The notes beneath the pieces are model-generated. The model worked only from the letters and a program-made list of their open reading frames with translations. It searched no databases and was not told the DNA's origin. From Herbiconiux sp. (lineage in GTDB: Bacteria > Actinomycetota > Actinomycetes > Actinomycetales > Microbacteriaceae), in contig NZ_SCVE01000007.1 of NCBI RefSeq assembly GCF_004297105.1, forward strand, positions 1 to 64,000: a stretch of 64,000 bases of DNA, in the 5' to 3' direction. The position numbers were made by a program, and so were the translations under genes. This document shows, piece after piece, positions 1-58,795 of this stretch (position 1 is the first letter of the stretch; the number at the start of each line of letters is the position of its first letter).

Positions 1-436
1 TCGCGTGCCTCCCTCTGAAACCGAGCGAGCGCAGCTCGCTCGGCGCTGGCGTCGCAGCGACGATCCACCGGATCGTCGCCCCCAGCTCCAGCGCGCGGCG
101 ACGCGCTCACCTTGGGTCGTTGAAAACGGCCCCCGGTTTTCATGCGCGTGACGTCGTTCTGGCAGTGAAACCGACGCGTCCCCACCGTGCAACTACGCAA
201 ATGCGGCAGACCGACCCCTTATACGGCCCCGGTCTGCTTCATTCACGGAGTTACCCGGTCACGCGACCGAGAACCGGGGGCCGTACTCGCCGCGGTAAGG
301 CTGCACGCACGCCAGGACGCGCCGCGCAAGCGGCACGGCGCGTCCTGGCGTGCGCGCAGCATGTCGCGCGCCGCCGGGCAAGGACCGGCGGCGCCTGGTG
401 GTTCGACGCCGCGCAGCGGCATCGAACCACCAGCAG
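1..436 (-). repeat. Structured foldback repeat element, copy A (cut by the window start)
   Basis: This is a non-coding block downstream of the carboxylase gene. Its reverse complement matches 58296-58740 nearly throughout, at about nine identical bases in ten. It is a chain of inverted repeats: 21-43 (10-bp arms), a dyad around 58-80, 120-141, a large central foldback at about 185-285 and an edge hairpin at 395-433. Identity with the other copy begins at TAGCTGCTG, whose TAG is the carboxylase stop codon. The far end lies before base 1. No credible reading frame is kept between the copies. It could be a MITE-like foldback element, a BIME-like repeat or a structured RNA; the sequence does not decide which. 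Confidence 0.85.
395..433 (-). terminator. Edge hairpin of repeat copy A, candidate terminator of the carboxylase gene
   Basis: The 11-bp outer arms (CTGGTGGTTCG with CGAACCACCAG) enclose a 2x2 internal loop, a 5-bp inner stem (GCCGC/GCGGC) and a triloop. It starts three bases after the carboxylase stop codon. There is no T-tract, so a terminator role is only inferred. The matching hairpin at 58303-58341 keeps the fold with three compensated base-pair changes. Confidence 0.5.
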
Positions 437-2038
437 CTAAAGCGGAATATTCCCGTGCTTCTTCGGCGGCAGCGAGGCCCGCTTCGTGCGCAGCGCCCGC
501 AGGGCCTTCGTGACCGAGACGCGAGTGGCCGCCGGTTCGATGACACCGTCGAGCTCGCCGCGCTCCGCCGCGAGGAACGGCGACGCGACGTTGTAGGTGT
601 ACTCGTTCGCGAGCTTCGTGCGTACCGCCGCCACATCTTCGCCCGCCTCCTCGGCGCGCTTGATCTCACCGCGGTACAGGATGTTCACCGCACCCTGCCC
701 GCCCATCACGGCGATCTCCGCGGTGGGCCAGGCGAGGTTGATGTCGGCTCCGAGCTGCTTCGAGCCCATCACGATGTAGGCACCGCCGTAGGCCTTGCGC
801 AGAATCACCGTCACCAGGGGCACGGTGGCCTCGGCGTAGGCGTAGAGCAGCTTCGCGCCGCGGCGGATGACGCCCGTCCACTCCTGGTCGGTGCCGGGCA
901 GGTAGCCGGGAACGTCGACGAGCGTCAGGATCGGGATCGAGAACGCGTCGCAGAACCGCACGAACCGGGAGGCCTTCTCACCCGCCTCGATGTTGAGGGT
1001 GCCGGCCATCGAGTTCGGCTGGTTCGCCACGATGCCCACCGAGCGGCCCTCGATGCGGGCGAAGCCCACCACGATGTTGGGTGCGTAGAGCGGCTGCGTC
1101 TCGAGGAAGTCGCCGCCATCGACGAGGTGCTCGATGACGGTGTGCACGTCGTAGGGCTGGTTCGGCGAATCCGGGATGATCGTGTTCAGCTTGCGGTCGG
1201 CATCCGTGATCTCGAGCTCGACCTCGCTGTCGTACACGGGCTGCTCCGCCAGGTTGTTCTGCGGCAGGAAGCTCAAGAGGGCCCGCGCGTAGTCGAGCGC
1301 GTCGTCCTCATCCGAAGCCAGGTAGTGCGAGACGCCCGACACGCTGTTGTGCGTGAGCGCGCCACCGAGCTCCTCCATGCCGACGTCTTCTCCGGTGACC
1401 GTCTTGATGACGTCAGGACCGGTGACGAACATCTGCGACGTCTTGTCGACCATGATCACGAAGTCGGTGAGCGCGGGGGAGTACACCGCGCCGCCGGCCG
1501 CCGGGCCCATGATGATGGAGATCTGCGGGATGACGCCCGACGCGGCCGTGTTGCGGCGGAAGATCTCGCCGTACTTGCCGAGCGCCACGACACCCTCCTG
1601 GATGCGCGCGCCGCCGGAGTCGAGCATGCCGATGATGGGCACGCCGGTCTTCAGCGCCAAGTCCATCACCTTGATGATCTTCTCGCCGGCCACTTCGCCG
1701 AGCGAGCCGCCGAAGATCGTGAAGTCCTGGGCGTACACCGCCACCTGGCGGCCGTGGATGGTGCCGGTTCCCGTCACCACCGCGTCGCCGTAGGGCCGCG
1801 ACTTCTCCATGCCGAAGGCGTGGGTGCGGTGCCGAACGAACTCGTCGATCTCCACGAACGAGCCGTGGTCGAGCAACTGCTCGATGCGCTCGCGGGCGGT
1901 CTTCTTGCCGCGCTTGTGCTGCTTCTCGATGGCGGCCTCGCCGGATGCCGTCACGGCTTCGTGATAGCGGTTCTTCAGATCGGCCAGCTTGCCCGCTGTG
2001 GTGTACATGTCGGGCTGCGTCGTCAGGTCTTCACTCAC
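437..2038 (-). CDS. Acyl-CoA carboxylase, carboxyltransferase beta subunit (propionyl/acetyl-CoA type)
   Basis: This is the carboxyltransferase subunit of a biotin-dependent acyl-CoA carboxylase of the AccD5/PccB group. It moves CO2 from carboxybiotin to acetyl- or propionyl-CoA, giving malonyl- or methylmalonyl-CoA for lipid synthesis. Its roughly 533 residues are the usual family length. The N-terminal crotonase-like half carries GGARIQEG near residue 145, and the C-terminal half carries DVPGYLPGTDQE followed by KAYGGAYIVMGSK. The end, PKKHGNIPL, is typical of actinobacterial homologues. I chose the GTG start because a TAGAGT -10 box lies 7 bases upstream (leaderless). An in-frame ATG 9 bases further upstream would fall between that box and the GTG. 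Biotin ligase is divergent next door, a sensible partner. Confidence 0.93.
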   Translation of the reverse strand: MSEDLTTQPDMYTTAGKLADLKNRYHEAVTASGEAAIEKQHKRGKKTARERIEQLLDHGSFVEIDEFVRHRTHAFGMEKSRPYGDAVVTGTGTIHGRQVAVYAQDFTIFGGSLGEVAGEKIIKVMDLALKTGVPIIGMLDSGGARIQEGVVALGKYGEIFRRNTAASGVIPQISIIMGPAAGGAVYSPALTDFVIMVDKTSQMFVTGPDVIKTVTGEDVGMEELGGALTHNSVSGVSHYLASDEDDALDYARALLSFLPQNNLAEQPVYDSEVELEITDADRKLNTIIPDSPNQPYDVHTVIEHLVDGGDFLETQPLYAPNIVVGFARIEGRSVGIVANQPNSMAGTLNIEAGEKASRFVRFCDAFSIPILTLVDVPGYLPGTDQEWTGVIRRGAKLLYAYAEATVPLVTVILRKAYGGAYIVMGSKQLGADINLAWPTAEIAVMGGQGAVNILYRGEIKRAEEAGEDVAAVRTKLANEYTYNVASPFLAAERGELDGVIEPAATRVSVTKALRALRTKRASLPPKKHGNIPL

Positions 2039-2045
2039 GCCGTTC

Positions 2046-2051
2046 ACTCTA
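2046..2051 (-). promoter_or_regulatory. -10 box TAGAGT for the carboxylase beta subunit (leaderless)
   Basis: TAGAGT on the minus strand, then 7 bases, then the GTG start. This is the classic actinobacterial leaderless layout. No clear -35 box was seen. Confidence 0.5.
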
Positions 2052-57302: not shown

Positions 57303-57310
57303 CTAAGCAG

Positions 57311-58306
57311 ATGGACCTCGACGCCTACAGTTCCGCGCATCGTGACGAATGGGATCGCCTCGATGAACTCGGGCGACGGCGGGAGTTCACGGGGCGTGAG
57401 GCCGACGAGCTGATCGAACGCTACCAGTCGGGGTCGACGCAGCTGTCGGCCATCAAGACGGTGGCCGGGTCGACCGCCCAGGGCGACCGGCTCTCGGTGT
57501 CGCTGTCGCGGGCGCGGTTGCGCTTCACCGGGGCGGGCACGAATGTCTTCCGGCAGCTGCCGATGTTCTTCGCCATCCAGTTGCCGGCGGCGCTGTACCG
57601 CATCCGGTGGCTGACGCTGGCGGTCGCAGTGGCCACCATCGCCATCGCCGCGCTCTACGCGGTCTGGATCTCGCAGAACCCTGCCGTGCTGGCCGCCCTC
57701 GGCGACAACGCCGACCTCAAGAAGTTCGTCGACGAAGACTTCGTCAACTACTACTCCGAGAACCCGGCGGCGTCGTTCGCAGGACAGGTGTGGACGAACA
57801 ACGCCTGGATCGCCGCCCAGTGCATCGCTTTCGGCATCCTCGGGGTCTACGTTCCGTCTGTCATCATCCAGAACGCCCAGAACCTCGGGATCAGCATGGC
57901 GGTCATGTTCGACGCCCAGCGGGGTGACGTCTTCTTCCAGTACATCCTCCCGCACGGGATGCTCGAGCTCACCGCCATCTTCGTGGCCGCGGCCGCGGGG
58001 CTGCGCATCTTCTGGGCGTGGGTGGCGCCGGGCCCCCGCACCCGGGCGCAGTCGCTCGCCGAGAACGGCCGCTCGCTCATCACGGTGGCGGTCGGCCTCG
58101 TCTTCGTGCTCTTCGTTTCGGGCGTCATCGAAGGCTTCGTCACCCCGGCGCCGTGGCCCGTGTGGGTGAAGATCAGCATTGGCGCGATCGCCCTGCTCGC
58201 ATTCCTGTTCTACATGATCGTGATCGGTGGGCGGGCTGCGCGGGCGGGCGCCACGGGCGACCTCGACGAGTTCGAGGCGGGGGCCAAGCAGCTGACTAGC
58301 TGCTGA
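57311..58306 (+). CDS. Stage II sporulation protein M (SpoIIM)-like membrane protein
   Basis: 331 residues. A soluble N-terminal 80 residues (DAYSSAHRDEWDRL) is followed by about five helices with the SpoIIM-type NNAWIAAQCIAFGILG segment. Non-sporulating actinobacteria keep this gene beside RDD and MoxR/DUF58 genes; it likely takes part in an envelope complex and not in sporulation. The last two residues and the stop codon lie inside the edge of the repeat element, so the native C-terminus may have been changed. Confidence 0.88.
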   Translation: MDLDAYSSAHRDEWDRLDELGRRREFTGREADELIERYQSGSTQLSAIKTVAGSTAQGDRLSVSLSRARLRFTGAGTNVFRQLPMFFAIQLPAALYRIRWLTLAVAVATIAIAALYAVWISQNPAVLAALGDNADLKKFVDEDFVNYYSENPAASFAGQVWTNNAWIAAQCIAFGILGVYVPSVIIQNAQNLGISMAVMFDAQRGDVFFQYILPHGMLELTAIFVAAAAGLRIFWAWVAPGPRTRAQSLAENGRSLITVAVGLVFVLFVSGVIEGFVTPAPWPVWVKISIGAIALLAFLFYMIVIGGRAARAGATGDLDEFEAGAKQLTSC

Positions 58307-58795
58307 CTGTTCGTTGCCGCTGTGCGGCGTCGAACAGTCAGGCGCCGCCGGTCCCTGCCCGGCGGCGCGCGACATGCTGCGCGCGCGCCAGAACGCGCCG
58401 TGCCGCTTGCGCGGCGCGCCCCGCCCTGCCGCGCGTGCAGCCTTGCCAAGACGAGTACGGCCCCCGGTTCTCGGTCGCGTGACCGGGTAACTACGCGAAT
58501 GAAGCAGACCGGAGCCCTATCGGGAGTCGGTCTGCCGCATTTTCGTAGTTGCACGGTGGGGACGCGGCGGTTTCACTGCCAGAACCACGTCACGCGCGTG
58601 AAAACCGGGGGCCGTTTTCGACGACCCAGGGTGAGCGCGCCGCCGCGCGCTGGAGCTGGGGCGACGATCCGGTGGATCGTCGCTGCGACGCCAGCGCCGA
58701 GCGAGCTGCGCTCGCTCGGTTTCAGAGAGAGGCACGCGAACATGTCGCGACCCGCGGCGGCGCCGCCGCGCAGCGGCACAGCCGCCTGCGGCAGC
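58296..58795 (+). repeat. Structured foldback repeat element, copy B (complete)
   Basis: Inverted copy of the block at 1-436. It is an imperfect nested palindrome about an axis near 58520. An inner hairpin spans 58489-58550 (arms AACTACGCGAATGAAGCAGA and its near complement). Outer arms lie at 58456-58483 and 58589-58616, both built on ACGGCCCCCGGTT. End segments at about 58309-58390 and 58735-58790 are inverted copies of each other (GGCGCCGCC and CGCGACATG blocks). Extra stem-loops lie at 58661-58683 and 58697-58719. No open frame is shared with copy A in a coding pattern. Confidence 0.85.
58303..58341 (+). terminator. Edge hairpin of repeat copy B, candidate terminator of the SpoIIM-like gene
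   Basis: The 11-bp arms (CTGACTGTTCG with CGAACAGTCAG) enclose a GCCGC/GCGGC inner stem and a triloop. The SpoIIM-like stop codon lies in the first arm. Same size and shape as the hairpin at 395-433. No T-tract follows. Confidence 0.5.

Follow-up and report, generated by a model that had tools for sequence, protein, structure and literature searches.

Two long inverted and strongly folded sequences lie 58 kb apart in Herbiconiux sp. (assembly GCF_004297105.1), and the question is what kind of element they represent. The window, that is, the whole stretch of DNA analysed here, is the first 64 kb (64,000 nucleotides) of contig NZ_SCVE01000007.1 (C12), and it carries copy A at positions 1-436 on the minus strand and copy B at 58296-58804. 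An earlier reading of the window, hereafter the original prediction, had offered for them a miniature inverted-repeat transposable element (MITE)-like element, a repeat like the bacterial interspersed mosaic element (BIME) or a structured RNA family, and had added that they could drive inversion of the segment between them. We find that A and B are composites belonging to a family of three-hairpin units resembling repetitive extragenic palindromic (REP) sequences and BIMEs, joined by two further palindromic repeats, X and Y. With moderate confidence, we consider it probable that these units are non-autonomous mobile repeats which settle behind stop codons and are predicted to form, on the sense strand, a folded mRNA 3′ end that would act in termination or protection. 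The observations under this reading are the anatomy and copy number of the unit, its conserved pairing, its placement, the tag-outside inverted pairs and its presence or absence at orthologous gene ends.

A family of three-hairpin units

The inverted match between the two copies was reproduced by BLAST, in which minus-strand A (1-439) aligned with B at 91% identity over query positions 8-450 (E = 1e-178), and the mean column identity of A and B in a pairwise alignment was 89%. Moreover, confinement to these two sites, which the original prediction had named as telling against it, is excluded: BLAST of the same genome with B gave 52 matches at E ≤ 0.01, A and B counted, the best 40 of 106 first-look candidates being scored. 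Most of these matches span only modules of B. The shared unit reads, from 5′ to 3′, a tag, hairpin H1, hairpin H2 (often GCCGGTCCCTGCCCGGC), ACATG(T/C), hairpin H3 and then CTCACCCTGGGTCGTCGAGTACGGCC, its end being noted as GTACGGCC. Over 57 units the tag has the consensus GCTGTGCT[A/G]GCTG, with the A of TAG present in 44%.

A covariance model was built from 20 units and covers H2 to GGCC (93 modelled positions). It gave 33 matches in the own genome at E ≤ 1, including 26 at E ≤ 0.01, and found units in 14 of 16 Herbiconiux genomes, with 1-89 units each, counts that are possibly lower bounds as the best 150 candidates per genome were scored; genomes G010 and G001 had none. When 249 genomes of the family Microbacteriaceae were scanned with this model under stricter filters, four matched, all four in Herbiconiux, with G001, also drawn, again giving none and with units in 0 of 84 other genera. 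A scan of named genomes used one exact 21-base pattern and so recovers only copies with that motif; it gave 50 stretches, located in Herbiconiux species, ‘Microbacteriaceae bacterium 3FA27C10’ and ‘Corynebacterium-like bacterium B27’, and viral contigs contained no exact match to the motif. Loci of the genomes compared agree with those of named genomes in score and layout, as does L037 of G015 with L173 of H. solani, and the genus is accordingly taken to be Herbiconiux. Within the sample searched, the family is restricted to one genus.

Placement behind stop codons

For the analysis of placement, genes were called by a codon-usage script trained on the window, and 127 unique units (147 before deduplication) were taken from 30 of the 33 own matches together with 117 from 94 related loci, which had been fetched as good matches. 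Not one of the 127 units lies inside a predicted coding sequence (CDS). Given in unit orientation, the flanking genes are +- for 65 units, ++ for 30, -- for 15 and -+ for 2, and 15 units are at a locus edge. The modelled start of the unit is at a median distance of 42.5 nt past the stop codon in tandem and 44 nt in convergent contexts, and the distances after the stop have modes at 34 nt, the usual length of H1, and at 0 nt. Counted as elements, with 15 edge elements dropped, 52 were convergent, 2 divergent and 38 tandem, versus 83, 130 and 139 among gaps at least 60 nt long that hold no unit (p = 8e-13).

The tag contributes directly to the ends of the genes. Among the 97 genes that have a sense unit no more than 120 nt away, 57 end in TAG, versus 163 of 578 others; CTGC or TTGC comes immediately after this stop in 24 of the 57 versus 2 of the 163. 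TAG stops are thus enriched before units because the in-frame TAG of the tag serves as the stop codon. Neighbouring units no more than 1.5 kb apart have their 3′ ends facing in 20 of 23 cases, 18 of these 20 within 400 nt. Inverted pairs with the tag outside and a location just behind genes bear out the suggestion of a BIME-like repeat, and a pair between convergent genes is predicted to serve both genes simultaneously.

Avoidance of genes may have another source. The zero units in CDS and the two divergent elements would fit purifying selection on a purely selfish foldback element. The hairpins of such an element would serve a transposase as single-stranded DNA and have no other role, and its placement would be a leftover of selection. 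In REP and IS200/IS605 ends, too, hairpins of one strand carry a tag at their foot. However, unit starts at or a few bases past stop codons, together with the sense bias in tandem gaps, exceed what mere gene avoidance would give.

Conserved pairing and the folding strand

Base pairs of the unit are kept by compensatory change. Among the 20 seed units both sides had changed at 15 of 35 pairs, versus 8.2 in shuffles, and four of five covariation measures were never equalled in 500 shuffles, the fifth in 30 of them. For 97 distinct units there were 289 double-changed cells versus 85.7 in shuffles, and the covariation score was 0.293 versus 0.077 after shuffling and at most 0.053 with partners slid, with 0 of 500 shuffles reaching the observed value on all five measures; relatedness is not accounted for in these shuffles, and the alignment of 97 rows had been fitted to the model, so the size of the covariation is to be taken as indicative, which is a first caution against our reading. 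Compensatory change in both sets of units, combined with placement just behind genes, speaks for the proposed structured RNA family.

H1 lies outside the model and was detected in 79 of the 127 units, with 15-bp arms in 58 and a TTC or TGC loop in 70. Its arms diverge strongly among copies while complementarity is kept. When stems were selected in a way that favours neither wobble, 57 distinct H1 stems had 95 G-T versus 5 A-C positions, which points to the sense strand of the upstream gene as the one that has to fold. For the unit itself and for the preceding 60 nt alike, the sense fold was also more stable than the antisense fold in 110 of 127 units. A different origin of H1, as an inverted copy of the end of its host gene, had seemed to fit four loci (L175, L108, L090 and L101); it was dropped because only 6 of 60 scored stems extend into the CDS, and most of these read as overlap with the tag of the element itself.

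Covariation, wobble and fold data fit RNA and single-stranded DNA alike. Single-stranded DNA tolerates G-T wobble just as RNA does, so that the H1 counts leave the choice between our reading and a purely selfish element undecided. The selfish element would, moreover, call for a transposase, and no Y1 transposase match was present in any of the 14 unit-bearing genomes. Taking this with the positions of the unit starts, we judge a purely selfish element unlikely, if still a serious competitor.

Gain and loss at orthologous gene ends

If the units move, orthologous gene ends should differ in whether they carry one. Four gene ends were tracked: 14 genomes were compared at the B site, 15 at the A site and 16 each at gnd and a parA-like gene. 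Units were present in 4, 4, 5 and 7 of them, respectively, or at 20 of 61 genome-sites; three further model matches in these loci (L207, L237 and L262) lie elsewhere and were left out. On a four-protein tree the minimum numbers of changes are 3, 3, 4 and 4, which is at least 14, and shuffled patterns average 3.6, 3.6, 4.4 and 5.5. Even the sister species G004 and G009 differ in occupancy at the B site. This pattern fits repeated gain and loss of units, with recombination as another possible source. In the reading that we prefer, units would spread between gene ends as a non-autonomous mobile element, and presence or absence would reflect movement to new sites. The MITE-like character proposed earlier stands as far as this turnover goes, while exact ends, a target duplication and a matching transposase were not found.

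Spread other than by transposition was also considered. By eye, several unit-free gnd and parA-like gaps hold ordinary inverted-repeat terminators, and the five gnd units, of differing subtypes, start 0-4 nt past the stop codon. Both observations would suit ordinary cis-acting terminators passed between gene ends by gene conversion, as would the proposal, in the available text of PMC8355165, that hairpin clusters behind stop codons are terminators in many bacteria. Gene conversion needs similar target sequence, yet several unit-free gaps are just 0-9 bp, and 0 to 89 copies within one genus look like bursts. We therefore rate gene conversion as a rather improbable explanation and keep to mobile repeats.

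Three further features of these gene ends were seen. At the A site the orthologues in G004 (L218) and G009 (L219) carry units that look similar by eye and point in opposite directions, and the genes that follow lie on different strands; this suggests a rearrangement breakpoint at the element. The 1-kb gap after the SpoIIM gene in G012 (L199) is occupied by a repeat unrelated to the family, in which cores like AGAAGTCACTTTTGGCGCCAAAACC recur several times. In G014 and G006 (L256 and L257), the gap behind the parA-like gene has a tandem array of ∼30-nt units like GCGAGTTACTCGCAGGCTGGGTCGCGTTA ahead of the repeat unit.

The search for a mover and the role of the folded end

Several results weigh against mobile repeats that fold as the ends of mRNAs. 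All four gene ends tracked above were selected because some genome carried a unit there. At the gene ends compared by eye, clean insertion ends, a clean empty site and a target duplication were not found, and the ends vary. A Y1 transposase of RAYT/IS200 type (RAYT, REP-associated tyrosine transposase; PF01797) was matched in 1 of the 16 Herbiconiux genomes, the unit-free G001, and in 0 of 14 unit-bearing ones, so this enzyme is not supported as the mobiliser. Reverse transcriptase was found in 3 of the 16 (G010 and G001, both unit-free, and G008) and is not supported in that role either. No transposase-like family beside units was seen by eye in the 25 largest clusters (≤7 members) of 489 predicted proteins. 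If the units are mobile, the mover would act in trans, and the genomes searched would either lack it or carry it in a form that was not recognised.

The strand evidence is likewise uneven. The excess of G-U in the unit's own stems comes from two fixed columns only, and without those columns and the internal loop these stems have 9 G-U versus 39 A-C, 26 of the 39 in one column; thus the unit's own stems do not clearly agree with the sense strand given by the H1 wobbles. For single units in tandem gaps, 22 are sense and 9 antisense (p = 0.03), a modest bias. Nor was a T-tract terminator pattern found in B, the sole scan match lying in the upstream gene.

The position of H1 also bears on the function that we propose. 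According to the available text of PMC4824070, ribosomes in E. coli repress terminators that lie just a few bases downstream of a gene. H1 often starts a few bases behind its gene, where by analogy such repression would act, which counts against H1 as a terminator; H2 and H3 rather than H1 would then be expected to terminate. Hairpin-cluster intrinsic terminators, as described in the part of PMC8355165 available, are mostly within 80 nt of stop codons, and the poly-U trail is stated to be unnecessary. In the accessible text of two other papers, E. coli REPs ≤15 nt from stop codons are reported to stall ribosomes (PMC12306157) and stable structure right behind stop codons is described as widespread (PMC7518266). 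By analogy, ribosome stalling or a stable post-stop structure may be alternative RNA roles for H1. On balance we still favour sense-strand hairpins which would form the folded 3′ end of the mRNA of the upstream gene, acting in termination or protection.

Comparison with known repeats

Among known repeats, REPs and BIMEs are the closest in kind. As described in the text available from PMC3733652, they too are many-copy extragenic palindromes behind convergent and tandem genes, they form tag-outside (HH) inverted dimers with short structured spacers, and their GTAG tags often provide TAG stops, with action as RNA suggested; families tagged with CGTC are described as well. In contrast, a REP in that text is 20-40 bp with a single hairpin, whereas the unit here has three hairpins, with 93 modelled positions plus H1 and the tag; the tag GCTGTGCT[A/G]GCTG is neither GTAG nor CGTC; unlike GTAG-type REPs, the units have no Y1/RAYT match in the genomes that bear them; and they were found in one actinobacterial genus only. 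Because unit size, tag and the missing RAYT fall outside the definition of REP, the family is REP-like and not REP proper. The word Actinobacteria is absent from the main text of PMC3733652.

Two other comparisons can be drawn. The repeats bcr1-bcr18 of Bacillus cereus are, in the part of PMC3446304 available, group-specific, some MITE-like and some with conserved structure, and about half were found transcribed. They share with our family the restriction to a group, the structure and, in part, the MITE-like character, and differ in host phylum; the likeness is drawn from their description. Hairpin-cluster terminators similarly have clustered hairpins close behind stop codons, but are not described as one repeat family in the accessible text of PMC8355165. 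The open-access literature on Herbiconiux, and on palindromic, foldback or REP/RAYT repeats of Microbacteriaceae or actinobacteria, gave nothing on this family. The family is a real and strongly structured variant of the REP/BIME repeats, probably mobile, which sits at gene ends and has so far been found in one genus.

Architecture of copies A and B

Copy B is a full composite of left wing, spacer and right wing. The left wing begins with the plus-strand tag CTAGCTG (58296-58302), which agrees with the consensus of the 57 units, and continues on the same strand with H1 (58303-58341, from the inverted repeat and the RNA fold), H2 (58342-58368, from the RNA fold and H2 covariation across the family) and H3 in a CTGCGC..GTGCAG variant (58369-58446, from the RNA fold). 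The 3′ end of the unit, the GAGTACGGCC motif, was placed at 58453-58462 (+) by alignment and sequence, and the covariance model matches 58340-58462 (E = 5.1e-4). The right wing (58610-58804, minus strand) is an inverted unit with module X inside, recognised by the model, nhmmer and BLAST. Its score to the model is weak because module X interrupts it: the model matches 58610-58688 only at E = 0.16, nhmmer matches 58610-58648 at E = 3.4e-6, and BLAST matches 58610-58648 and 58732-58770.

As predicted from the sequence originally, B is a nested palindrome with its axis near 58520, with arms at 58452-58488/58584-58620 and 58482-58511/58528-58557 and additional side hairpins. The nested look of both copies arises because a further palindromic repeat lies in each of two places, module X within the right wing and module Y within the spacer. 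The DNA fold of B is far above chance (z = -9.0, 0 of 100 shuffles as good), and the RNA fold of its left wing (58303-58470) reaches -107.6 kcal/mol (z = -6.3). The lengths first given to the copies needed revision. B extends to ∼58804, beyond the 58740 noted before, and the reverse-complemented tag is visible there. Copy A starts at base 1 of the contig and is not short; the contig simply ends before the far end of the copy is reached. The model matches A at 279-396 on the minus strand (E = 7.2e-6) and, weakly, at 38-131 on the plus strand (E = 0.29). In this draft genome (G000), eight contig ends on seven contigs (C1, C4, C8, C10, C11, C12 and C16) are within family copies, and the repeats probably broke the assembly at those ends.

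Both copies adjoin the 3′ ends of genes. The carboxyl transferase gene at A (437-2047, minus strand; PF01039) ends with a TAG stop followed directly by CTG and H1. Upstream of B is the gene of a SpoIIM-domain protein (57311-58306, plus strand; PF01944 and open reading frame), whose stop codon lies inside the H1 stem, and a DUF58 gene (58894-60201, minus strand; PF01882) converges on B from the other side. The SpoIIM/DUF58 pair around the B site is adjacent in 12 of 13 other genomes, the remaining one, G009, having no DUF58 match.

This adjacency bears on whether A and B serve to invert the 58-kb segment between them, for which long inverted repeats are a suitable arrangement. The junction at B is, however, the common one, and dozens of related copies occur elsewhere in the genome. 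Inversion is thus not supported and, as the purpose of these copies, highly improbable; as a rare event it is possible.

Other identities were tried for the copies and rejected. An ordinary gene fragment does not fit copies that sit in gaps between called genes. As the original prediction had it, no rRNA or tRNA explains them: no tRNA was found in the window, and the 64 kb gave 0 matches to any known Rfam RNA at gathering score. A phage or plasmid origin of B was dropped since neither collection gave a match.

Modules X and Y

Module X is a separate 76-nt double-hairpin repeat, present also in unit-free genomes and in other genera. In B it occupies the H3 region of the right wing (58645-58719, plus strand; nhmmer E = 3.3e-18), and in A it is at 21-96 on the minus strand (nhmmer match at 1844-1919 of L002, reverse strand, E = 3.2e-19, converted to window coordinates). 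Module Y is the palindrome GTAACTACG..CGTAGTTGC in the spacer of B (58482-58557), defined as an inverted repeat with further copies; by eye, it is alone in L024, accompanied by a short end remnant in L013 and next to a shortened unit in L014.

Six copies of X are within predicted CDS. Four share one reading frame (1501-1576 of both L031 and L035, 1501-1560 of L056, and 1501-1571 of L036 on the reverse strand) and two do not (L032, in a minus-strand gene, and L050). Two of the same-frame copies are in LigD genes of two species, in two different linkers between Pfam domains; the others are just past the domain of an aconitase-family gene and at the end of one further CDS. Rickettsia palindromic elements are described, in the available text of PMC3733652, as palindromic repeats in frame within coding genes. 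Intragenic X, also palindromic and in frame, looks like an element of the Rickettsia type in Actinobacteria, differing in its actinobacterial host genes.

Implications

A bolder form of our reading can be put forward tentatively, as a possibility that we hold to be open to considerable doubt. The family may be a new class of mobile transcript ends, in which a structured-RNA element jumps onto gene ends, gives a stop codon and a terminator in one piece and takes the place of conventional terminators; the machinery that moves it would be other than a Y1 transposase or any known type of reverse transcriptase. If the reading that we prefer holds, REP-like biology would extend to an actinobacterium for which searches did not find the usual transposase, and the question of the mover would be reopened. 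Differences in occupancy between sister species could serve as natural experiments on termination, mRNA stability and stop-codon choice, and a whole genus would be rewiring its gene ends by a mobile hairpin cassette.

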